Positions 4,752 through 35,479 of a DNA stretch of 41,496 nt are shown one piece after another (positions within the stretch are counted from its first letter, which is position 1; each line of letters opens with the position of its first letter). The DNA comes from Saccoglossus kowalevskii (taxonomy: Eukaryota > Hemichordata > Enteropneusta > Harrimaniidae): assembly GCF_000003605.2 (NCBI RefSeq), contig NW_003135334.1, forward strand, positions 349,533 through 391,028. The letters are read 5' to 3'. The position numbers were made by a program, and so were the translations under genes. Below the pieces are notes generated by a model that worked only from the letters and a program-made list of their open reading frames with translations, ran no database searches and was not told the DNA's origin.

Positions 4752-5456
4752 GAATTCCAAATATGAAATGATTACGCATGTAAGCGTCCTCTAATAATAA
4801 AAACAAACATGATTGGTACCAGAGTTTGACCGGACTCCACACAAAGAAGTTTGCTGATTCTGTTCTAAACTTTTTTGGTTTCGGCATGCTCATGATGTAT
4901 CCTTTGAAGGAAAAGATGTATAATAATAAGATTATTACAATGATACCTCAAAATATGTACTCAGACAGTACGCCGTTGCATCGTCCTTCGCTGCGCGTCG
5001 GTCGATACTCCAGCTGTACTGTCTTTGTGCATACTTTGAGGTATCCTCGTAATAACCTCATAGTATTACTAACCTGTCTTTGCTATACTTCAAAATATAT
5101 ATTTGCATCTCACAATTACCGATAGGTCATTCAAACTTTTTTGCTTTGTTTACGAATATTTACATGCAACATCAATGTTGTGTATGACTGAAACAGAATT
5201 ATGCTAACTTAATAAAGATTATGATGTGTTTTGTTGTTGTCCTTTCAAGGTGTTGTATCCTATATGTCAGTGAAAATGTGTAATAGTATTGAATAAGGTT
5301 ATCATGAGACGGTACAGGATATGTTACTCATTGGTCGATGTCATCACTATTCTGCCTTTGTGCAAACTTTGCCATATTCTTGTGATACCTTCATATTATC
5401 AAAAAAATATTTGTAAAGTAAATGAATGATGGACATATTAATATTGAAGTTAATTT
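4752..5456. other. Gene-free spacer
   Basis: No supported gene. Near 4930-5060 two similar stretches read toward each other: CTCAAAATATGTACTCAGAC and GTGCATACTTTGAGGTATCC. This gives a weak inverted repeat around the GC-richer segment 4970-5035, perhaps a decayed element. Confidence 0.4.
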
Positions 5457-5806
5457 AATAGGTGATTTTTTATTCAACTGCTAGTTTTCGTGAGTTGCAT
5501 GAAAGACGTGCACCGACCGTCTGCCAGTAAAATCGAATGATTTGATTTTGAACTTGAATTTCTTTATCTTGTAGGTCACATCGAAAGGCTGATCTTTAAC
5601 AGGGGAATGTTGCGTTTGAATACCTTTACTTCATTGAAATTGATCAAATCACATTATTAAGCATGGAAATATCCCCCAAAATACTTTTGTCAAATCCCAC
5701 ATGAAGTTTGTCGCCACTATGATGCTATAATCTTAGTTTGTCCTGTTTTTACGTTTGATTTCACGCATAGCGCGGGATCTCGCAGTGAACAAAAAATGGT
5801 CTATTA
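5457..5806 (-). mobile_element. Family II MITE copy
   Basis: This 350-bp element starts AATAGGTGATTTTTTATTCA and ends in GCAGTGAACAAAAAATGGTC followed by TATT, so the two ends are imperfect inverted repeats. Read in reverse complement it aligns along its whole length with 11345-11680 and 21948-22282. Shared landmarks include ATGGAAATATCCCCCAAAA, CACATTATTAAGCATGG and the AGCGCGGGATCTCGC segment. A TAATA-like flank on both sides may be a target duplication. It has no coding capacity. Confidence 0.82.
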
Positions 5807-7100
5807 TTCTGATGTTTTTTTTTTAATATGTTGCAGTCATGTCATGAGGGTCGCTCAATTCATTACAGTGCAAGCCTTGAGGGTAGGGGGGCTGCATCTG
5901 TAATTAACTAGCGTGTAATTGATTTCCATTTGTATATTCTTGGTATAAGCTGAGTAGAAAAAGTAATTTCCAATGACGATTGTAATTAAAGTATCTTTGT
6001 CAAGTGGTCGGTACGTTCATTTCTCACGTAGTGCCAATATTGTGTACCTCATATACCAGTACATTGTATACAATACAGCTCATATTTCACACAACCTGTC
6101 AGTGTTTTCACATTCCTACAGTGCATACAAAATTTTATTTGATTTAGTGAGTTCTGCCAAAATGAAAATGATGAAAATATACGATGCAAACACGAATGTG
6201 TGAATCTTAGTTGTACATGTATGATAATGTATAAAATCGTCTGTAAAATCGATCGACTGAGGCGCTTCCTGATAAGTCACCCGTCTTCAAACAATCCAGT
6301 AATTTTGGCCAAATTAGGAAATATGATATGATATTTAATTTAATATCACACAAATTAATATTCATATTTCCAATTTTAATTGTATTTTCATGAAAATTTA
6401 CAGGGATTATTTACTATATTGATTGTTAAACATGGTGACATTTTGTCAATCTGGAATAAAACATGTGTATTTTATATTTGACGATCATCAAAGTTAGTGT
6501 ATTCTGCACTGTCAACAAGTCTGATGCCCACCAACCTAGCAAAGTATATTGATTTTCCATCTTCCGATTCATCGTCTGTAATTAACTAGACTACACCCAC
6601 AGGTCAGAATCCCCACGTATTTGGTATATTTGCCCTGTGGAGATGGACTGTCATTTTTTTTTTAGGCTGAATATTCGCGTAGGTTAGTTTTAGCAATAAC
6701 TGAGGCATGTGACAATCAAATGCTAGTACGCTTGTTTGCAGGCGCAAATATAATATCGATATAGCTTTTTTTTATATCGATAATTAAATAGACGCTTTGT
6801 ATTGATCCAGCAAATACTGTGTCAGTACAGCTCGGAAACAGGTAAAAGCTTTGTAAACTACAATGTTGTATTGCTTTTACCGTGACAGTTAGACAGTGTT
6901 GATGCGAGCTCAACTACGTTTATGTTGATTTTACCAGTGTGATGGGGATAATCTATGCGTAAATATCAGTGATTAAGGCTTAATTCTTGTACATGTATCA
7001 ACGTGGTGTCTGAACATAAGAAATGTGGAGTATATAGCATCAATAATAAGAATGTATAGCTTGCCAATTCAGACCTCTACATGGAATTTATAAATTTAAA
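5807..7100. other. Gene-free spacer
   Basis: No supported exon. Short features only: a T-run at 5816-5824 and a TATCGAT dyad around 6755-6782 (ATATCGATATAGC then TATATCGATAATT). Open frames at 5973-6203 and 6716-6913 carry no recognisable motif. Confidence 0.45.
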
Positions 7101-7138
7101 ATAATCATGTCAATTTGAAATAATCATGTCAATTTGAA
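7101..7138 (+). repeat. 19-bp perfect tandem duplication
   Basis: ATAATCATGTCAATTTGAA occurs twice back to back (7101-7119 and 7120-7138) without mismatch, so it is probably a recent slippage or repair duplication. Confidence 0.95.
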
Positions 7139-8898
7139 GAGTTGATGCACAGTGAAACATTTTCTCAGCAGTTGGTCACTCTACAGAAAGTGCAGTACAC
7201 ACATGTAAGTCAATTTTTTTCAGATTGGGGCTTTTCTGCATACTTTCAAAATATGGTATTTCAAGATGAATATTTTGTTTCTTTATTAGAGGATGCATAT
7301 TATGTACTTGTGTGTTTATGTATAGTTTGACTGTAAGCAATGTGGCAGTGTGTATGTTTGACGTCGTGAATGGTTTCACTAGTATGTAAAATCAACTGAA
7401 TTGACTCCACGTGAACAATACAACTCATTGTTTCACTGCCAAGTTCAAGAACTCAACAAAATTATATCAAAATATCAAAATAATGAAATTAAACGCCTGA
7501 AAAAATAAATTGTTTTACTGCACTGCGGGAAAGTATAGAATAAAGACTCTCATTTGCATATTTGTGTTGGATAATTTAACTAATTTCCTGTACTTTATAT
7601 ATATAATTAAAACTTCATTGTGTGTCTTTTTATAATTGTATAATTTAATTAGTCAATTAGTAATTTTCTCTTTATAATTAATAATCTCTACTCATGACAG
7701 TATTTTATTTGATGTTATCTGTATACCCCTAGATATATGTGGTGTTGTCTCACTACATTTACAGGTAGTTAAGTTAATATTCATGGTAAATACATTGAGA
7801 TGTGTTTAATATTCTGTCCATTGTCTCAGACTTGATCAAACTGGAAACACCTATTAAATGTTAACAGCCAAAGCGACCGATCACTTACGAGGTAAAATGT
7901 GTACGGCCTAAAGTTAATTGACTGAATTTGCTTGGTGTGCCTAATTGAACCTAGCAGGATATTTATATTTAATAACAAGGACTCTGTCATTAAACTCTGT
8001 TTCATGGAGGCATGAACAGGTTTTTTAAAAAATGTTCTTCAGAAGACCTTGGAGAACCTTGAGCTTTATTCAAATTCAAAAAATGACTTTGGGTATGGAA
8101 GCTATTTGGTAATGCTCATTACCCATAAGTCTTTGCAAGTTTGTTTAAATCATTGGGCAATCTTTCTGTCATGTACGCAAAAGATTGGTGGTACACCTTC
8201 GCTAGGCGTGCTGATTGGTCAAGAAGTTTTTCAATCGTCATTTGGAATATATAATACATTTATAAATATTTTTTTGTAAAAACATTCATATCTTTATGAA
8301 ATGGAATGTAATTGAATTGTTTAACTCATAAAAGTACAAGGCTCAAATTAATAGAGGCTATGGAAGCAATTACTAATATGTTTTGATAATTTTTAGTAAT
8401 TTCTTCTTAATTTTAGTTGCTCATAGTACAACAACCAAGAGATAATGATATCTGGGGATAATGATGATAATTCTTGTTGGCAATTCTGATTCTTCAATGG
8501 TTGTGGGACACATCAAATCATGACGTGGAGATGACATTGAATGTACAATGTAACACGAAGCCAAATTTAAACCAAACGGCATTCAAAGTCGACAGTTCGT
8601 TTTTAGAAACCGAAAAAAAGAATTATGGTACTTTATGGTATGTCTATGTAAGCGATTTGAAATTGAGATCATTCATTTTAGATCATGCCTTATGACTTGG
8701 AGTTGGTCATGTGTTTTTTGTTGACTCCCTCAATAAAACTCAATAATTATTTTTACTTACAATTAATTAGATTCTGTTTAGCTTTGCGCGCATATGCACC
8801 AGATAATATAAAGCGGCGTCATATTTAATCTTCAACAGACCATATGTGGTTACTAGCAAATCAAATTATTTCTCCCTGTGCTTATAGTACTTTTACAG
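7139..8898. other. Gene-free spacer
   Basis: AT-rich with no recognised repeat family. Small open frames at 7142-7330, 8049-8279 and 8474-8695 show no domain and no good splice context. Confidence 0.45.
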
Positions 8899-13254: not shown

Positions 13255-13466
13255 TACTATACAATAGTTTATTTCAGCTGGAATTAATTTTCGCTGGAAA
13301 GACTGTTTGGGTGTTTTGTAGGGAATTTATTTTCACTGATTTTTGACAAGTTGAATGTCAAATATAGGAAAAAAGGTATATTCGCTAGATTTTATTTTCA
13401 CTGAATCATTCCTTCAGCAAAAATAGCGAAAATAAATTCCAAGCGAAGTAAAGTATTTTTACAGTA
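13255..13466 (-). mobile_element. Family I MITE copy (inverted relative to 30203-30413)
   Basis: This 212-bp copy aligns nearly end to end with the reverse complement of 30203-30413. Shared words are AGCTGGAATTAATTTTCGCT, TTTTCACTGATTTTTGA, TATTCGCTAGA and TTTTTACAGTA at the end. The right TIR is well preserved; the left one (TACTATACAATAGTTTATTT) is decayed. TA borders both ends. Confidence 0.85.
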
Positions 13467-13619
13467 TGTTACATTGTATGCAAATTTCATTTATAAAGAA
13501 ATTATTAAAAATTACGTAAATTTGTAAAGCAAATAAATAATCCCGCGTGAGATAATGTTACATGTGAAAATTAATGTGGCCGAAAGATATCCCACATCAC
13601 ATTTCTGCCAACTTATGTC
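13467..13619. other. Short AT-rich spacer
   Basis: No feature seen. Confidence 0.5.
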
Positions 13620-15500: not shown

Positions 15501-17757
15501 TTTAATGCTAAAATACATCTAAATCAGGAGCCGCATCTTGATTATGCATGGACAGATTTCACTCTAACATTGGTACATACAACTCTTGATGCAAGGCATT
15601 TTGCGAATTTGATTGATTTTATTTTAAGTTATTCTGTGGAGTAATATCTTTGACAAGTGTATACCGATTTCATTCAAACTGACTATACATATTACATCTA
15701 GGATTCAAGATAGCTGATGACTGGCATCAGTTGTCTTTGTTACGACTAAGTAACTTCTATACACTCATTTCATTTCATTTCAATTTTGTTTGTACATTAT
15801 GATGAGGACAAGTTTCAATTGGTCTATTCCCCAAGCCTATTGATTTTCATATTTTACAAAGAAATTTGACTGAATTCTTGTTTTTGTATAAACGTGTCAT
15901 TTTCTTCTTTATCACTACTGGAAGCATTGCTCTTTTCCTAAGCCTGATATGCTCACATATACGTCTGCAGGTTCACAGCAGACTTCATTTCTGTTTCTCT
16001 GTTTCTTCATGTTATGTCTAAACCTTGAAATTCACCAATATTATCGGATTAATGAATTTCCGAGATATTTGAGACTGTATCGAAGAAACCACATGATGTG
16101 CAGGTAGCCAGTGGTGACATTCATTGTGCACGTTGTCGGCCTCTTCAATTATTCATATCTTTTTCCCTGAGAATAATAACCTATCAGCTCCTACCATAGC
16201 ACTCTTGGCAATTGATATTGTTAATAGACTCAGTTGAGTGAAGGAATATTAGACAAGCTTTCTTCAGCTCATGTGTACGCACTAAACATTCACTTTTATT
16301 GTTTTCGTAGCAGATAGGTAACATTTTATGACATATGGTATATACTAATAATAAAAGCGTTACCATTATCAGGCCGTGCAGTTTTCAATACAGTGTATTA
16401 CTAAAATAAAATACATTGAATGCCTGTAGTGAAATATTGCACTTTAATAATTTAAGGTCTTACATGAATATTCAAGCCATTAAATATGAGCTAAAATTGT
16501 ATTTTTTTTCTTCATAAGTATTACATAATCATTAATTTGGATACAGGTCATCAACTTTTGTTGTTTTTACTGGATATGAAATATTTTGGGCTTTTGGAGG
16601 AAGGCGGGATTTCAAAATGAACAGTTTTGGAATTATGTTAAATGATTATTTCATAAAAAAATTATTATTTATTTATTGTATTTATTTCATAAAAAAATCT
16701 ATTATACAAAAAAAAATGTAATAGTGTAGGAATTGGGCTAATATGCTTTAACGATAGCTTTTATATGAAAATGTTCTATGTTTGTGTTTATGATTTGAAG
16801 TCACACTGACATTTCTGAAATTGTTTTAGCATAGAAACAGATTACACTAATTTAGTTATGTAATATAATTCTGAAATCTTTCATAAATCCCCGGTGTGAG
16901 ATTGCCTTAGTCAAATTTCATCGCTGATTTGATGGCTTTTCTGTTAAATATCCGATTATGGTAGATGTCAGATGGGTGGGTGGTGGCGTGAGTGGGTGGA
17001 TGGACGTGATCTATAATGTACATGATAGCTATATAGCTTTAGGTTATCCAAGAGATGCTCTTACCTTCCCAGAATGCATTTCACCATATGCAGTATGATA
17101 TAAGCTTCCAAGTGATTGGCAGAAGGATATCTATCTTGTATCAACTCTTATGTGTGCAGAATACAGAATGTTTTGGATTATGTCTCTGGATATATGGTTC
17201 AGTTTTTAAACTTTTCTGAAGATGTTCTTGCTCCTCTAGGAGATTGTACTTTTATGCAAACAAAACCCAATCTGTATATAAAGCACTTGAAGTGAAGATA
17301 TATCTCATATTTACTCAAAACATTATGATGTATGAAATGGGCAAATTAAAGTGACCGGGTGTCGAATTGCTCATAATATATCAGTTCCGTTCGATGTGTA
17401 AGATATGTAAATGTGCTCTGTACGTTGATTTCTTAATTATTATAATTTGTTTATGCATATGTGATGAGATCATGTTGTCATAATATTATCTCAAGTCAAT
17501 ATACTGCTGTTTTATTACATTCGTTTTTCTATAACTGTTTTTAACGCTTGTTGGCATCCGATACAAATTTGCAATATTTTATGCAGCACAGATTAATTTC
17601 ATTGCCTTAAATAGATTGATTCCAAGACGCCCACATCAGTACATCAAATTAAGCAGTTTAATCTTGGTCTTGGTTGCTTGTGATGTTAGGGTAATTTTTT
17701 ATTGCACCAAAAGGAATTTAATTAATTAATAAACTGGTGGCTGCACTGCAGTTATTT
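15501..17757. other. Gene-free spacer
   Basis: The first 300 bases may be decayed extensions of the 15240-15500 repeat (ATGGACAGATTTCACTCTAA, TTGGTACATACA). A TTTCATAAAAAAAT duplication occurs near 16648-16697. A canonical-looking ZNF143/Staf word TTCCCAGAATGCATT lies at 17066-17080. No exon is supported. Confidence 0.45.
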
Positions 17758-17952
17758 TAACCTATTCACCAGCAGACTTTCTTGCCCAAATTTTTCTGTA
17801 TTTTTTTCTTATATTCTTCAATAATTCTGCAAATGAACCCTAATTTAGGAGCCAGCAGACGAAATTTAAGTCAATTTCCCGTTTTTACTCAAAAAATTTG
17901 GCTATTTTTGTGAATTTTTGATGAAAAGGGGGAACTGGTGGTGAAAAGGCTA
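17758..17952 (-). mobile_element. Family III MITE copy
   Basis: This 195-bp element starts TAACCTATTCACCAGCAGAC and ends ACTGGTGGTGAAAAGGCTA, so the ends are imperfect inverted repeats of about 18 bases. Its reverse complement aligns with 28784-29009 and 33070-33262. Shared words read on that strand include TTCACAAAA, ATAGCCAAATTTTTTGAGTA and TAGGGTTCATT, followed by ATTGAAGAATATAAGAAAAA. It has no coding capacity. Confidence 0.82.
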
Positions 17953-19170: not shown

Positions 19171-20300
19171 CGGTAAGTACTGTTGCTGATAAGGGACAAC
19201 TCGTGCTATAATTTCTTCGTCTGACAAGATATATAACTAACATATCAACTCATCATATATGGTTCATTATTTCATTAAATATTTATAATTGTTAAACCAT
19301 AGTTATTTAGAACCCTCCAGATCATTGCTTGCAGTTATATTTTTAAATGCTGTATTTGTTCTAATAGAAGCACATGTGGTAACTTCATGTACCAATACCT
19401 TCAGCACACGGGAGTTTCTTTCTAAGCTTTCTTTGATCACAAATGTCAAGGAAATTTTGTAGGAATTAACATTTCATTAGAGACTATTGCAAAATGTCAT
19501 CACCCACAAATACTGCAAAATTATTCCGCACAAAATAATGATTACTAAGAAAATTTGTTTGAAAAGTGTTTACCAGTGCCTTCACAATCTCATAATTCAG
19601 ATTCAACAAAATTTTGTGATCATTTTTTTTTAGTTTTAGACACACATTTTATCACAGACGAAAACAGACAACCTGTGGTTCATGCAACTCACAAGTGTTC
19701 ATGAAACGAACATGAAGTTTACTCATTAGCTTTTTATTCTCATCATCAAATTCATATTAACTTAAAGTATCCTTTTGTAAAACTGTCTCCAAACTTGAGT
19801 TCTGATTTTTGGAAAAGAATCATGCATTCATTGCTTTAATAAATTAGGTATACGAGACTGATATCAAATATCAGTACACAGATTAATGTGTACTGTCGTC
19901 AAATAAAACTATACATCTACCACCTGAGGGTTCTCAGTTGAATCTTGAAGTAAATTGAACACGTACATTTCTTCCATGCTAATTAAATGTACAGGTGCGT
20001 TCAAGTTTCACTGATATCCTCAGAATATATACCGCATACATCGTTTTTTTTCTAATACTCTTGTTTTGCCCTAGGCACTCTTTTTTTTCCCCCACTCGAT
20101 TATTTCTGCATCTTTAATAGTAACGTAGTATCAGCTAACTCAGGATTCAATGCATGTATGTACGGTTTTTAAAAAAATCAATTCATTTCAGAAATTATAA
20201 TTGTGTTATTTCATTTGTTACATAATTCTCCAGATTTGTCAAGTATATGAATATTTTAACCAAGTGATTTGGTCAGTGCAGTAGTTGGGGAAATAGTCTT
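19171..20300. other. Gene-free spacer
   Basis: No supported exon. T- and C-rich tracts occur near 20040-20098. No repeat family recognised. Confidence 0.5.
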
Positions 20301-20304
20301 TTTT

Positions 20305-20335
20305 AGCTCTGCTGTCGACTTTGTCGAGCGGAGCT
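20305..20335. repeat. Hairpin leader of a dispersed repeat
   Basis: AGCTCTGCTGTCGAC, a TTTG loop and TCGAGCGGAGCT form an imperfect dyad, followed at 20352-20371 by a GTC-GTC run. A short hairpin followed by GTC repeats is a pattern I associate with abundant dispersed repeats of molluscs and relatives. The dyad is directly visible; the taxonomic link is from memory. Confidence 0.7.
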
Positions 20336-20381
20336 TATCATATGAGTGATTGTCCGTCGTCGTCGTCGTCCGTGTCAATGT

Positions 20382-20990
20382 TTTACTTTTTCGACTTCTT
20401 CTTGAAAACTACAAGCTTGAATGCTTTGATACTTGGTGTATATGTACCTTGGGTAGACCTCTCTCAGATTTGTTCATTTTGTAATGATATCTTTAATTCT
20501 CTAATTTTGGTGAATGTTTTTGTCATTTTTGGTAAAAAGTGATATTTTCGACTTCTTGTTAAAAACCGCAAGTCCAATTGCTTTGATATTACATATATAG
20601 GTACTACATGTGGACCTCTCTCAGATTTGTTCATTTTGTAATGATATCTTCAATTCTCTAATTTGGGTGAATATTTTTGTCATTTTTGGTAAAAAGTGAT
20701 ATTTTCAACTTCTTGTTAAAAACCGCAAGTCCAATTCCTTTGATATGACATATATAGGTACTACATGTGGACCTCTCTCAGATTTGTTCATTTTGTAATG
20801 ATATCTTTAATTCTCTAATTTTGGTGAATATTTTTGTCATTTTTGGTAAAAAGTGATATTTTCTTGTTAAAAACCACAATCATTTATGGTGAAAAATGAT
20901 ATTTTTGAATTCTTGTTGAAAACAGCAAGTCCCATTGCATTGATACTATCCATATTGTTCATTTTCTAATGATATCTTCTGTTCTTTAAT
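20382..20990 (+). repeat. 157-bp tandem repeat following the hairpin leader
   Basis: Units begin at about 20384, 20541, 20698 and 20854, with period 156-157 bp. Each carries TTCGACTTCTTGTTAAAAAC or a variant, then TTTGATA, TGGACCTCTCTCAGATTTGT, TAATGATATCTT and TTTTTGGTAAAAAGTGATAT. Units 2 and 3 are nearly identical, unit 1 is diverged at its start, and unit 4 is rearranged with an internal deletion. The open frame 20321-20542 is within the array and is not a gene. The array may end near 21050-21090, where TAGCTTTGCTGTCAGCAATA echoes the leader. Confidence 0.9.
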
Positions 20991-28783: not shown

Positions 28784-29009
28784 TAACCTTTTTTCACCAC
28801 AAATTCACAAAATAGTCCCGTTTATAGTATGCATTTTCCAGAAGATTGAAACACAAATAGCTAAATTTGTCTGAATAAAAACTGAAAATTAATTCAAATT
28901 TTGTCTGTTGGCCCCAAAATTAGGGTTTATTCCTAGAAATATTGAAGAATGTAAGAAAAAAGTAAAAAAAAAACAATTTAGGCAAGAAGGTCTGGTGGTG
29001 AAAAGGTTG
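28784..29009 (+). mobile_element. Family III MITE copy
   Basis: This 226-bp copy begins TTAACCTTTTTTCACCAC and ends TCTGGTGGTGAAAAGGTTGA. It aligns with 33070-33262 in the same direction and with 17758-17952 in reverse. It contains a T/G-rich insertion (TTCAAATTTTGTCTGTTGGC) not seen in the 33-kb copy. It stops 24 bases before the foldback element. Confidence 0.83.
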
Positions 29010-29040
29010 AATTAAATAAAAATAAAAAGTAACCCTTACA

Positions 29041-29453
29041 AAAGTTTCCTATAGGATTCCTATAAGAATCCTATAGAACAAATTCCTGTAGGATTCCTAT
29101 AATATTTTGACACGTGTTTTCCTATAGGAATCCTATAGGATTTTGTGTCAAAATATTATCGGAATCCTATTGGATTTTGTCCTATAGGAATCCTATATGA
29201 TTTTGTCCTATAGGAATCCTATAGGATTTTGTGTCAAAATATTATAGGAATCCTATAAGATTTTGTCCTATAGGAATCCTATAGGATTTTGTTCTATAGA
29301 AATCCTATAGGATTTTGTCCTATAGAAATCCTATAGGATTTTGTGTCAAAATATTATAGGAATCCTATTGGATTTTGTCCTATAGGATTTTGTATCAAAA
29401 TATTATAGGAATCCTACATGAATTTGTCCTATAGGAATCCTAGATATATTTCC
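29041..29453. repeat. Left arm: TCCTATAGGA palindrome array
   Basis: Twelve exact copies of TCCTATAGGA start at 29047, 29120, 29131, 29180, 29206, 29217, 29266, 29277, 29303, 29329, 29378 and 29427, plus several one-mismatch copies. They are arranged in units of about 26 bp (GGAATCCTATAGGATTTTG plus TCCTATA) interleaved with 34-bp units in which TGTCAAAATATTATA replaces the second half. Confidence 0.95.
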
Positions 29454-30202
29454 TGGAGGTTCCAGCTCTTTTGGGGAAAGAACCCATCAATCACTTACAT
29501 AAATAACATTATAAATTAAAATTAGTTAAACAAGAGTATTTTATTGCTTAACATGTGCCAGACATAAATTTAATACAATTGTAAGAAAAATATAAAAAAA
29601 GATAAAACTATTACTATAAATAATTATATATTGCACAACATTTCTTGAAATGCAATGAAAATATATATATATAAAATGAAGTTGATGACAGTTTGAATAA
29701 TAAATGTAATTTCCTCCACTCATTGTCATTGTTTCTAAGTACTAGAGTTTTTTCATAAAAATTAGTTTATATTACAGAGTAATTCCGAAAAACAAAACAG
29801 TGAACAATCTCAACCAGCAATTACAAACTTTTCAGTCAATCAAGAAATGTACACTGAAATAAAATAAAAGTTTACTGCCTTGGAATAAAATGATGTACAC
29901 TGAGTGATACATAGTATCCAGACAATTTAAAAAATAAATGTATAAAAAGTACAATTACAAAAATACTGGTATGCATATTGTGTTTCTAAAAAAAAAGCAC
30001 AGAACCCTCAATTCAAATTTAATGATTTCTAACATGAGAGAGTCTTCATTTTGGGTCAGAAGGTTCAATTTGTGATAAAGAAATACAAAATAAAATATTG
30101 TCAATGCAGTCTTCTGTGAGATATGTCATTCATAGGATTTGAGTATTGGACCTGTAATACAAAAAAGAATTTGTTTCAAATGTTTCATTAAAATATTCCA
30201 AA
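29454..30202. other. Foldback element interior, left part
   Basis: Very AT-rich, with a short TA run near 29661. The only frame (minus strand, 29541-29729) is a low-complexity chance frame rich in I, Y and F. Confidence 0.5.
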
Positions 30203-30413
30203 TACTGTGAAATACTTTATTTTCACTTGCAATTAATGTTTGCTATTTTCGCTGAAGGGATTATTCAGTGAAAAAAAAGTCTAGCGAATATAACTTTTTT
30301 CCTGTATTTCAAACTCACTCATCAAAAATCAGTGAAAATAATTTCCTCACAAAATACCCAAAAGGCCCTTTCAGCGAAAATTAATTCCAGCTAAAATAAA
30401 GTATTTTACAGTA
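30203..30413 (+). mobile_element. Family I MITE copy nested in the foldback element
   Basis: This 211-bp element has TIRs TACTGTGAAATACTTTATTT and AAATAAAGTATTTTACAGTA (about 24 bases, near-perfect inverted match) and TA at both borders. Its reverse complement aligns throughout with 13255-13466. It is the best-preserved copy and lies inside 29033-32575, so it inserted after that element did, unless it moved with it. Confidence 0.88.
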
Positions 30414-32256
30414 GATAAAAAACTACCATTTACTGTATATGCACTATTAGATGCGTATTCCCAATAGAAGTGCATATAAACCCAACATTGCATTGGCTGT
30501 GTATTAAAATTTACTTATTTTGCCATAGACAAAAATTCTGTATTTTTTATAAGCAAATTCATTACTTAATGGAGCAAATATGCTAAAACAGTAAAATTTG
30601 AAGGTACATATGTGTGTAATGTTTTTAAATACTACATGAATTTCATTGATTTTATTAAATGCATTCCTCTAAATTTGGCTTTCACAAATTTAGTAAAAAA
30701 AATTACTAGTAATATGAAAAAAATGGTAGCATTTAATTATAATTTCCCAAAATTAAAAGTTGTTAGAGAAATCAAAATTGGTTCAACGGGGTAAATATTA
30801 GAATATAATATTGAAATTCACTGCTGTTATGAGTGAATTTCCCCCCAGAAAAAGCCATGCACTGAGTGACCACCAGATGCACACACAAATAACTATTTTG
30901 AAATACCAGCGATACTGATTACTTTTAGAAATAGTGTCCGAGTCCACTAACTCATTAATTCCAACTATTTCAAACTTTTCATAATATGTATAATGAAATA
31001 CATGTATATCTAATGTTTTTGATGGAAAAAATAAATTATAAATACAGTTTACTCCCATCGCACGTACATGAACACTTTGTCTAATGGTAGAGTACTACCT
31101 ACATTCATCGTCAGTCAGACATTCATATGATAACAGCGGTACGCGCAGCATTGAGCCGAGACAACAAAAGTTAAATTATGAAAAATGATCAGAAACCTTG
31201 AAATATTTGTAATTGCAAATGGTTATGTACATCCCAGCCCCATCATGATCACAACTGTCTTTAAATTTAAAGGATAAATGGTATACTTTTGAGGTCAACA
31301 GTCAGCTAGTTAATTAATTCAGTGTTACTAATCCTTAAGTACACAGTCACAGTACCTTTTTGTGTTTGTGTTTTTTGAAGCTAAAAAACACATTAAAAAC
31401 ACCAAGATATACCATAATTATGTTACTCACATGTTCTCTACAAGTTTATAGTCTTCTTGGTCCAAAAATTAGGTAAAATTACATCAGTTTCTCCATATTA
31501 CAAGGTCATTGTGACAGCATGGTCCACAGTCACTGGCACAAACAATGTGTAACTTATAGTGCATGATGGGTAAAACACTCAGAAGGAGGCTGATGGTAGT
31601 ACACCATCTGTGGTCACAGGAAGTTCAGGCTCTGTGTTCAGTAACCTGTCTCTCAATAATTTAATAGTTATAAAATTTCTCAAAACGCTTTACTTATGTT
31701 TTTCTTCTAATCTGCCAAATATGAATTAAAATAAAGCTGATCCCAAGAATATTAAAATCATGGTTATTTGTTCTAAAATTACTCAAATCTTTTTATGAAG
31801 TTTTAACAATTCAGTAAAAACTAGAGACTTTCTGTTTTTGTGTGATAAAAATAGACATTTGGAAAGTTGAAAGGAAAATTAAACTAAACATGGATATTTT
31901 TAATTTTTTACAAATGATTTTTCATCAGTATTTGTTTATATTTTTTTCAAAATGTGCTGACAAAACTTTTAAAAGTCTATAGAAATAACGCATATCAATC
32001 TGATTTTTTTAATAATTTTTTTTTTAAAGTAAAATTTTATTTTAATATATTAATCATTTACTGGGAGTTTTTGAAGATGCAAGATGGATAAAAACAAATA
32101 TAAATGCAATAAAAAAACATGCCGTACAATACAACTTATTGTAATGAGATTGACTAAAGTTCAATTTGAAAAAATGTTGACATCTTATGACAGTATGTAA
32201 TATTTTTGTAGGGGAGTGATATGAATCTAGGTAACTTACTCTACATGTAGAAATAT
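30414..32256. other. Foldback element interior, right part
   Basis: Mostly AT-rich and non-coding. A GC-richer patch at about 31525-31665 stands out. On the minus strand it has an open frame from 31689 down to a TGA at 31579-31581, including RDRLLNTEPELPVTTDG. It may be a captured fragment or chance. The minus-strand frame 30798-31058 has no motif. Confidence 0.4.
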
Positions 32257-32575
32257 CCAGTCCTATAGGACTGGCAGTGTAAAGTCCTATAGGAATTGTA
32301 TAGTCCTATAGGACTTATGATCTCACACACCAGTCCTATAGGACTGGCAGTGTAAAGGCCTATAGGAATTATATAGTCCTATAGGACTTATGATCTCACA
32401 CACCAGTCCTATAGGATTGGCAGTGTAAAGTCCTATAGGACTTGTTGATTCCTATAGGAATTTACATAAAATCCTACAGGACTATACATGTCCTATAGGA
32501 TTTCATGAAAAGTCCTATAGGATTTTTTAGAATCCTATAAGATTTTAAAAATCCTATAGGAAACTTTTGTAAGGG
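32257..32575. repeat. Right arm: TCCTATAGGA palindrome array
   Basis: Eleven exact TCCTATAGGA copies start at 32261, 32285, 32304, 32334, 32377, 32407, 32431, 32450, 32491, 32513 and 32552. The inner part is a 73-bp tandem unit (starts 32261, 32334, 32407) containing GGCAGTGTAAAG and TTATGATCTCACACAC. In the first two units the palindrome extends to the perfect 18-base CCAGTCCTATAGGACTGG. Confidence 0.95.
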
Positions 32576-32584
32576 AAAAATTAA

Positions 32585-33069: not shown

Positions 33070-33262
33070 CATCCACCACTTCTCTGACATCACAAATTCA
33101 CAAAATGGTCTTGTTTATAGTCTACACTTTCCTTTAGAAGATTGGGACAAAAATAGCCAAATTTTTTGAGTAAAACCGAAAATTAGGGTTCATTCACAGA
33201 AATATTGAAGAATATAAGAAAAAAAGTGCAGAAAGTAAGAAAGTCTTGTGTTGAAAAGGTTA
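33070..33262 (+). mobile_element. Family III MITE copy
   Basis: It aligns with 28784-29009 in the same orientation. Shared words are CACAAATTCACAAAAT, GTTTATAGT, AGAAGATTG and GAAATATTGAAGAAT, and the copy ends TTGAAAAGGTTA. The left end is decayed (CCACCACTTC). Confidence 0.78.
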
Positions 33263-34639
33263 ATTCCCAGTAACGCTTAAAGTACTTGCATGACAGCTTA
33301 CACAAAATACAGATAATTCAGATGAGTGATGTGTCCGTATAGATTACCTTACTGATCAGACAACATAGTGTTTATAATGAAGTTGAAACCTCTAATGATA
33401 CAAATCAAACTGATAATCTTGTCAGATTATTTATAAATGGAAACTAGCACAATACAATAAATCCGATTAAACTTAATCTGTCACTAATGATCTACTGCTC
33501 TCCTGGCAATTTTAAATCTTACTGTGTTAATAAACACCTACCCTCACTGTGTATTATTCTGAATGCCATTGTATGCTCATGAAATAAGCATTAAAAATGA
33601 CAACTGCCTCGTCTTTGAAAAGTGCAGTTTATTTTAATAGTGCACATTCAGACTAAATCAGAATTGAAGGTTTTAAAGAGTATTTAGATTCATTTGGTCA
33701 ATCCATCATCGCTTTCACTTAATAAAATTTGTCACTTCAAATGTCAAGCATTGTCATTTTGTTTTACAGTCTGAAAACAGTTCTCATTTTTCCGTCTTCC
33801 CTGTTGAGCCTTCATAAGCTGCACCGGATAATCTTATGCATATTAACATAGGCTTATGTGTCAGCTTCTGGATAATATGTATGATAGATAGTACAAATCC
33901 GCAGAACGGCAATTTTTTTTTTTTTTTCCCATATTTAGTGTCTGATGCAATTGATCATCAGAACAACTCTGGTGTAAATTTTATAATATTGTTCGTACAT
34001 ATGAGTATGTTACAACCAAGCAGCACATCTAGAACCCATACAGAGCCCATACAGATCTATTTACCAACCTAAACTGAAAATATGAGCACCTACACCTGCT
34101 TTGAACTGAATTATTAAATACATGATATGATACTTTCAAACGAATATATTATAGCTGAGACCAATTTTCAATTTCTCTAACACAATTTATACTAGCACAA
34201 TTTTGCACCATATCAGTATAAATTAAATTAATAAAACCGTTTGTATATATTGTATTTTCTGCTTCATTTCATTCATTAATATACAAATCGTGTCATATGA
34301 TGTATATACTTGATTTTAGTAAGAATTACTGTGTATACATGTACAGTGTATACTTAAGTGAATCTGTGTAGTTATAATTAACCTTCATGTGGCCTCTGTA
34401 ATGAGAATCGCACATCGTTTTTTTTTAAGGAATTCAACCGTGTCTAGATATTCCCTGTGCATGCCGCCTTAGATGTCATCACACTTACAATAAGCTCAAT
34501 GTGCAGACAGTCTCCCTCATCTAAACCTATTAGTCTTCATCCAAAAACTGCATCTATTAAGTTAACTATCTATCCCTCTGTCTGCACATGTGTTTTTGTG
34601 GACCAACGTAATTTTTATGGGTATACATTTATGCTTGGA
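33263..34639. other. Gene-free spacer
   Basis: No supported exon. There is a T-run at about 33912-33926. Frames at 33836-34072 and 34457-34654 show no domain. Confidence 0.45.
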
Positions 34640-35110
34640 AGTCATATTTATTAGTCCCTGTTCGAACAAATTCATTCGAATTCAGTCTTCATCAGTCCAT
34701 CCGTTTAGTCAGTTTTTGTTCAAATTTAGTATATACATTATATATGTTAGGATACATGTCTATGGCGATTCGTTTCACATCCGGATCAAAGATGGCCGAC
34801 TGGCAGCCATTTTTTTCTTTAAATGTGGCATCTTATGCATACTTTGTCATTTTTTGTTCAAATTTGGTACATACATTGTACATTTTAGATTACATGTCCA
34901 TGACATTTTGTTTTACAATCAAATTAAAGATGGCCAACTGGCTGCCATCTTGCTTTTTCGACCATACTACGGTATATCCCCAAGGCTTATAAACCCTTTT
35001 TCATTCATATTTGGCACATACATCATACATATAGGAATACATATTCATGTCAGTATGTTCCATAATCTGATGGCCAACTGGTATCCATCTTGTTTTTTTG
35101 AAAATGTGGT
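34640..35110 (+). repeat. 138-bp tandem GATGGCC repeat
   Basis: Three units are marked by GATGGCCGACTGGCAGCCAT at 34791, GATGGCCAACTGGCTGCCAT at 34929 and GATGGCCAACTGGTATCCAT at 35069 (spacing 138 and 140). Each is preceded by TTCAAATTTGGTACATACAT or a variant and ACATGTC-ATG. The marker is itself an imperfect dyad (ATGGC...GCCAT). Because 138 is divisible by 3, a 175-codon frame (34590-35117) stays open across the units and gives 46-residue repeats; this is a property of the repeat, not evidence of a gene. Confidence 0.88.
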
Positions 35111-35479
35111 CTCTTAGGCAGGATTTGTCAATTTTCAAATTTGATACAAACATTATACATGTTGATATACATGTTGATGATGATTCGTTTCATGTTCCGT
35201 ATCTCTGTACATGAGCCTGGACAAATGAAATTTGGTTTGGATACTAAAAATGCATGATTAGCATATCCTGTTTAATTTCTGACCATATATTATGATTATG
35301 ATATCTTGGCTGATTTCATTCAAACATGCCAGTAAAAAGTTAGTTATGACCACTTGATTTAGAATGGCTGACTGGTGGCCATACAAATGTTAGTCCATGT
35401 TGGACATAGTCTGAAATCAATGACTTGTGTTTTTCGTCCAATCGTTTCACGATTTGCTACAATAAAGCCAAGGTGGTAA
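35111..35479. repeat. Decayed continuation of the GATGGCC repeat
   Basis: Fragments of the unit recur: TTCAAATTTGATACAAACAT, ACATGTTGATGATGATTCGT, TTCATTCAAACATGCCAG and ATGGCTGACTGGTGGCCAT near 35364. Confidence 0.6.

Follow-up and report, generated by a model that had tools for sequence, protein, structure and literature searches.

The window analysed here is a 41,496-nucleotide stretch of the genome of the hemichordate Saccoglossus kowalevskii (contig NW_003135334.1, positions 349,533 to 391,028 of the forward strand), and the feature under study is an element of 3543 bp at 29033..32575 on its + strand, bounded by terminal inverted repeats (TIRs) and without recognised coding sequence. Its ends are the two halves of a perfect inverted repeat, each exactly 26 bp long (CCCTTACAAAAGTTTCCTATAGGATT), which lie at 29033-29058 (left, + strand) and 32550-32575 (right, - strand), and inside each lies the outermost copy of a palindromic decamer, TCCTATAGGA. 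The left array, at 29047..29436 (+), has 26 TCCTATAGGA-like sites at no more than 2 mismatches, 12 of them exact; the right array, at 32261..32561 (-), has 14 by the same measure, 11 of them exact. These 23 exact decamers are the only ones in the window, against a chance expectation of 0.02, and none of 100 shuffles reaches that number. An earlier note, made from the letters alone, had reported both the perfect 26-base ends and the 12 and 11 exact decamers with none elsewhere, and was right on each count. Between the arrays stretches an A+T-rich, non-coding interior (29451..32256, +). Seventeen stop-to-stop open reading frames (ORFs) of at least 45 aa overlap the element, the longest being 98 aa, and a Pfam scan of 10 of the 17 gave no match above the cut-off, the sole match being to FN3_Tor_3rd at an E value of 0.072, under the cut-off; on these grounds a transposase encoded within the element was rejected.

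The two arms are built differently. Decamers in the left arm are spaced mostly 11, 15 or 23 bp apart, as 11-bp-spaced pairs set 15 or 23 bp from one another; those in the right arm are spaced 19-30 bp apart, and in the inner part of that arm a 73-bp unit (19+24+30) recurs in which, by eye, the three decamers are identical and the spacers between them unlike. In a self-comparison the arms resemble each other over 44 aligned terminal bases (88.6%), beyond which spacers and periods diverge, and a second cross-arm match of 47 bases (85%; 29292-29338 against 32532-32491) consists for the most part of decamers. The left arm also holds inverted segments around 29114, and as single-stranded DNA each arm folds on itself far more strongly than shuffles do (z -18.4 for 29033-29450 and z -13.7 for 32257-32575). 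The earlier description of the arms as foldback-like therefore holds in part: they are internally repetitive and each is able to fold back on itself, but beyond about 44 bp they are not the long inverted copies of each other that foldback arms should be. Because the arms are not inverted copies, they are not true foldback arms, and the element is two different arrays of one palindrome rather than a textbook foldback with two long complementary arms.

The element belongs to a family of non-coding transposons in its genome, which was searched as 572 Mb in 4830 contigs (contigs and loci are cited below by our C and L numbers). Exact decamers number 690 genome-wide, against 160 for the reversed string, and for decamer pairs no more than 30 bp apart the count is 182, as against none with the reversed pattern. 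Searching with a 24-bp end at up to 3 mismatches returned 15 ends in 14 loci, two of the ends being those in the window, with 1 for the reversed control. At the 13 other ends the sequence outside the CCC differs (by eye), and since the flanks differ there the element boundary was placed at that point. Inverted ends at several sites with different flanks are what defines a DNA transposon with TIRs, and the non-autonomous repeated family with a 26-base TIR that had been surmised from the window is thereby supported. The ends sort into two types: left-type ends in the window, L035, L037 and L038, and in part L041, L042 and L043; and right-type ends in the window, L032, L033, L034, L036, L039 and L040, with L044 assigned to neither. 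Counting the site within the TIR, 10 of the 13 other ends have three or more decamer-like sites, and the earlier note's refuting case, ends that are absent from other arrays, is thus not what the genome shows; the ends with few sites are those of L040 (two), L044 (one) and L041 (one, with the array resuming after about 0.8 kb).

The left arm matches 18 contigs and the right arm 13; the left-arm match on C2106 is confined to the end of a right-type copy. Match counts for arms and interior are lower bounds, with 18 of 18 candidates scored for the left arm, 14 of 15 for the right and 40 of 80 for the interior; the right-arm search skips very common words, hence the satellite contig C3557, described below, is not among its matches, and the interior search left out the left interior (29460-30190). 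Both arms lie in the same order and strand on four contigs, C2715 (the window), C1605, C4613 and C2960, and the note's other refuting case, arms that never occur together in a fixed inverted arrangement, does not hold either; C3767 has the left arm plus an inverted TIR. Over 352 to 1775 aligned bases in each of nine copies, interior identity to the window is 94% for L036, 92% for L032, 90% for L037, 88% for L034, 78% for C1605, 75% for L041, 72% for L058, 71% for L059 and 69% for L052. The diverged copies L052 and L061 still show remnants of arrays, which suggests that the arrays are of long standing in the family rather than a recent local expansion.

Arrays that could be read through differ in length. 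The left arm has 26 sites in the window, 22 in L035 and 16 in L037; the right arm has 14 in the window, 17 in L032, 6 in L033, 16 in L034 and 18 in L036. Judged by eye from the spacing lists, these differences are mostly whole spacing blocks, with smaller steps as well (11 bp near the L035 end and 12 bp in L033), and the L032 array is broken by about 190 bp of other sequence. Of the earlier idea that the arms expand by replication slippage, the change in length mostly by repeat units is thus supported. L042 and L043, whose ends are off at 2 and 3 of the 24 positions, have only 3 and 4 decamer-like sites respectively, and may represent the state before amplification.

The right-arm unit also exists as a satellite. 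On C3557 (32,492 bp) a series of decamer pairs runs from 186 to at least 8083 among the matches listed, and the first 3000 bases (L060) are one tandem array with a 73-bp period and 40.8 copies according to Tandem Repeats Finder; the right-arm 73-bp satellite probably spans more than 8 kb of this contig. Its spacing of 24/30/19 is that of the right arm, and longer periods, of 295 and 372 bp, are detected as well. Its identity to the right-arm unit is about 90%, and the majority units agree at 70 of 73 columns, the 3 differences all being in spacers. Within the first 3 kb no TIR-like 12-mer (at least 10 of 12) was found, and 48 of the 118 decamer-like sites are exact. Three other tandem arrangements were noted. 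At L054 (C3686:73000-76000) the left arm and part of the genomic flank stand in tandem with a 407-bp period, possibly the first step to another satellite. At C1760:14804-15656 left-arm-like matches of 65-66% recur every 231 bp, perhaps another tandem array. A 77-78 bp satellite at L053 (C1211:834601-835700) has in each unit one TCCTATAGGA, exact or nearly so; its spacers differ, and as a relative it was judged a coincidence.

We think it fairly probable that the element is a non-autonomous cut-and-paste DNA transposon, moved in trans, whose arms are amplified dyad-symmetric docking sites for a transposase. A transposase encoded elsewhere would move the element in trans; the outer CCCTTACAAAAGTT would be the cleavage end, and the TCCTATAGGA inside the end, together with the many copies behind both ends, would serve as docking sites for a dimeric DNA-binding domain. 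With a symmetric site orientation is irrelevant, and therefore arms of different layout could serve alike. Within each arm, unequal exchange or slippage would raise and lower the number of repeat units, and amplification of the right-arm unit outside the element would have produced the satellite. Two distinct arm types recur among the copies, which supports this reading, and one-ended relatives with 3-4 sites are what would be expected if few sites came first and arrays later. A more far-reaching version, which we put forward only tentatively, is that the ends are non-homologous yet functionally equivalent, each having independently acquired an array in which one shared, dyad-symmetric transposase site is repeated; the number and phasing of sites (11-bp pairs as against 19/24/30) would tune synapsis, and the arms would spill out as a site-retaining satellite, a potential transposase sink or heterochromatin seed.

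Several observations weigh against the docking model, and the first of them concern the material available. Of the 13 other TIR loci, 11 are cut short, 8 by a stretch of N and 3 by a contig end, and therefore a fixed arrangement of the arms is checkable at few; in L041 and L043 a second end was not found. L042 and L043 are each known from one end, and could be decayed or truncated. The others concern constraint on the decamer. In the copies readable in the outer arms (4 left, 5 right), variable columns number 6 of 70 in decamers and 3 of 37 in spacers on the left, and 10 of 50 and 10 of 52 on the right. A second comparison, which speaks for the docking model, used ungapped 73-bp units picked by their likeness to the window unit, 14 from the right arms of four elements and 23 from the 3 kb of satellite. 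Variation in the element units was 0.064 in decamer columns against 0.110 in spacer columns (column shuffle p 0.034), and in the satellite units 0.081 against 0.064 (p 0.49); the p of 0.034 is one nominal result among three element-arm tests, from a small sample of non-independent units. The evidence for constraint on the decamer is hence mixed. The stronger argument is qualitative: the same ten letters recur within the 73-bp unit and between the arms, amid spacers that are unlike.

The main alternative is that the transposon family is real and the arrays are passive, a decamer near each end having been multiplied by slippage, hairpin template switching and unequal exchange, with no binding role save perhaps for the outermost site. 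That the outer-arm decamer columns are conserved no better than the spacers is explained better by passive multiplication than by docking; the low share of exact sites in the first 3 kb of the satellite and the length changes mostly by units point the same way, and the strong self-folding of the arms favours copying errors of just this kind. Passive copying fits less well with a 10-mer kept in both arms despite their differing spacers and periods, or with a 73-bp unit whose decamers are, by eye, identical amid unlike spacers. Nor does it sit easily with the 3-4 decamer-like sites that one-ended relatives retain beside the end, or with decamer changes that are fewer in the element units and not in the satellite units. 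On balance we regard it as an unlikely account, though one to be taken seriously. That a decamer-bearing 73-bp satellite came first and was captured as the right arm seems to us improbable. The near identity of the C3557 satellite to the right-arm unit (about 90%, with majority units differing at 3 of 73 columns) speaks for capture. Against it, the outer right arm, judged by eye, has decamer contexts that the 73-bp unit lacks and passes gradually into the TIR, decamers occur in the left arm where this unit is missing, and the 3 kb of satellite read contain no TIR-like 12-mer. Ordinary minisatellites or an assembly artefact flanking a chance inverted repeat, for which we see almost no chance, could appeal to the gaps in the assembly and to the many copies interrupted in or beside their arrays, but are refuted by the same end in different flanks at 13 other places, the arm order conserved on four contigs and the shared interior.

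The flanks of the window copy, AAAAAGTAA at 29024..29032 (+) and AAAAATTAA at 32576..32584 (+), match at 8 of 9 positions and form a candidate target-site duplication seen in one copy only. At length 9 the match has p 0.0001 against random flank pairs and p 0.009 by local shuffle, with 11 lengths tried. A 9-bp duplication would suit Mutator-like enzymes, whose duplications measure 8-10 bp and usually 9, with Tm1 (PMC3169594) as an example and Tetris (PMC4079207) as a case for which this has been argued; the 8/9 match in this copy hints at Mutator; the superfamily is unproven. Here too there are points on the other side. The duplication is a single imperfect case in A-rich flanks; none was found in L058 or L059, nor by eye in L061, the C1605 flanks give no match above 7/9, and none adjoins the TIR in six one-ended loci. 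Moreover, the longer transposase-bearing relative envisaged by the earlier note did not turn up in searches of the genome with the 24-bp TIR, an 18-bp TIR, the interior and the domains of Mutator-like elements (MULEs), in an assembly where gaps cut most copies. The 18-bp TIR search at up to 2 mismatches found 32 places against 35 for the reversed control, the 16 two-mismatch places being at chance level, and nowhere but in the window do two ends face each other at short range. MULE domains occur at 12 genome places, 11 of them on contigs without any 24-bp TIR place; none is near a 24-bp TIR, the sole one on a shared contig lying about 542 kb from the window element, in a comparison by position against the TIR places, with the MULE loci's own ends not read for CCCTTACAAAAG or TCCTATAGGA. 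Among ORFs of at least 110 aa in 14 fetched loci, 7 were scanned against Pfam: one gave a Kringle match, one gave two reverse-transcriptase-type matches, both under the cut-off, and five were matchless. Two other superfamilies were rejected, piggyBac because none of the 15 ends has TTAA outside it, and CACTA because the TIR begins CCCTTAC and the flank triplets, TAA and AAA, differ. Shorter flank matches in the window copy are 3/7 at 7 bp and 6/8 at 8 bp, the lengths being 7-8 bp for the P superfamily and 8 bp for hAT.

Beyond this genome, no exact match to the TIR was found in viral_contigs or genome_contigs, and none to the array in viral_contigs or in phages; plasmids gave one 60-bp match (83%, E value 1e-6), to the element interior. 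Twelve genome_contigs matches to three decamers were set aside as unrelated, since their spacers are other ones and by eye they resemble bacterial coding repeats or operator-like sites. In L001-L003, L007 and L008 (Bdellovibrionales, Halobacteriovorax and deltaproteobacterial contigs) GGTCCTATAGGACC is regularly spaced and resembles, by eye, a Gly-Pro-Ile-Gly-Pro coding repeat. No description of the family turned up in literature text searches, which did not reach Repbase and most subscription papers.

Other repeats lie in and around the element. Nested in its interior at 30202..30413 (strand unassigned) is an unrelated short inverted-repeat element with a related copy at 13255-13467; it is present in the L037 copy and absent from the C1605 copy, and related sequence occurs at L014. 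By self-comparison, a second short repeat family flanks the element, in direct orientation at 28795-29015 and 33088-33234 and inverted at 17752-17911. A 157-bp tandem repeat occupies 20388-20863 of the window, and the translation of the adjoining frame at 20297-20539 resembles by eye that of a frame just inside the right arm of L033 (1161-1520). Imperfect repeats at 34566-35192, with about 140 bp between the closest pair, lie in and just past the window's longest open frame, of 183 aa, for which there was no Pfam match. In L039 (C2066), 1-2719 and 5161-7281 are a long tandem repeat; on one strand all three of its frames are open and read as periodic His/Trp-rich peptides.

Among known systems the nearest is Tetris/DAIBAM, a Drosophila virilis foldback. 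It is described as non-coding, with arm tandem repeats that also form satellite-like arrays and with an autonomous partner not found (PMC4079207); the present family is like it in its non-coding copies, its tandem-repeat arms, its satellite-like arrays of arm repeats and the autonomous copy that was not found. Its authors placed Tetris in Mutator on the strength of target duplications of 8-10 bp and of what had been suggested before about foldbacks, and they reported that foldback elements in Drosophila have a role in the origin of satellite DNA (PMC4079207). The repeats of Tetris are units of about 220 bp within its TIRs, whereas here the arms are unlike, having in common the outer ~44 bp and a palindromic 10-mer; what sets the present family apart is that its arms are non-homologous and that the repeated unit found in both is a short palindromic site. 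Tm1, a Mutator/Phantom foldback of root-knot nematodes, is alike in its composite terminal repeats of variable length, its mostly non-autonomous copies and its 9-bp target duplications, the last a candidate only here. One Tm1 copy encodes a MULE/FLYWCH transposase, and the two TIRs of a Tm1 element average 93% identity (PMC3169594), neither of which was found here.

For binding, the precedent is Galileo, of the P superfamily: footprinting and gel shifts showed its THAP domain to bind within the repeats that its long TIRs contain, and the repeated sites are proposed to give specificity (PMC3688188). Repeated sites for a DNA-binding domain within long ends are common to both, as predicted sites only in the present case, and by analogy with Galileo the arrays may have a docking role of which it shows a smaller-scale version. 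In Galileo three THAP sites are shown, in long inverted repeats; here the palindrome is uninterrupted, in 14 + 26 copies on non-homologous arms, and a P-type transposase was not looked for.

Multiple short subterminal motifs bound by a transposase or accessory protein, and arranged differently at the two ends, are known from CACTA/Spm and Ac/Ds elements. The short motif arrays near each end of the present element, with unlike arrangement at the two, recall these, but its TIR does not start with CACTA and no 3-bp or perfect 8-bp target duplication was seen.

What the hemichordate family offers is a comparative set: copies with 16-26 left and 6-18 right sites, relatives with 3-4, and a satellite of the same units without the transposon end. 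With such a set it can be tested whether the repetition of end sites reflects selection for recruiting a transposase or mechanical spread, and by what route satellite DNA arises from transposon ends.

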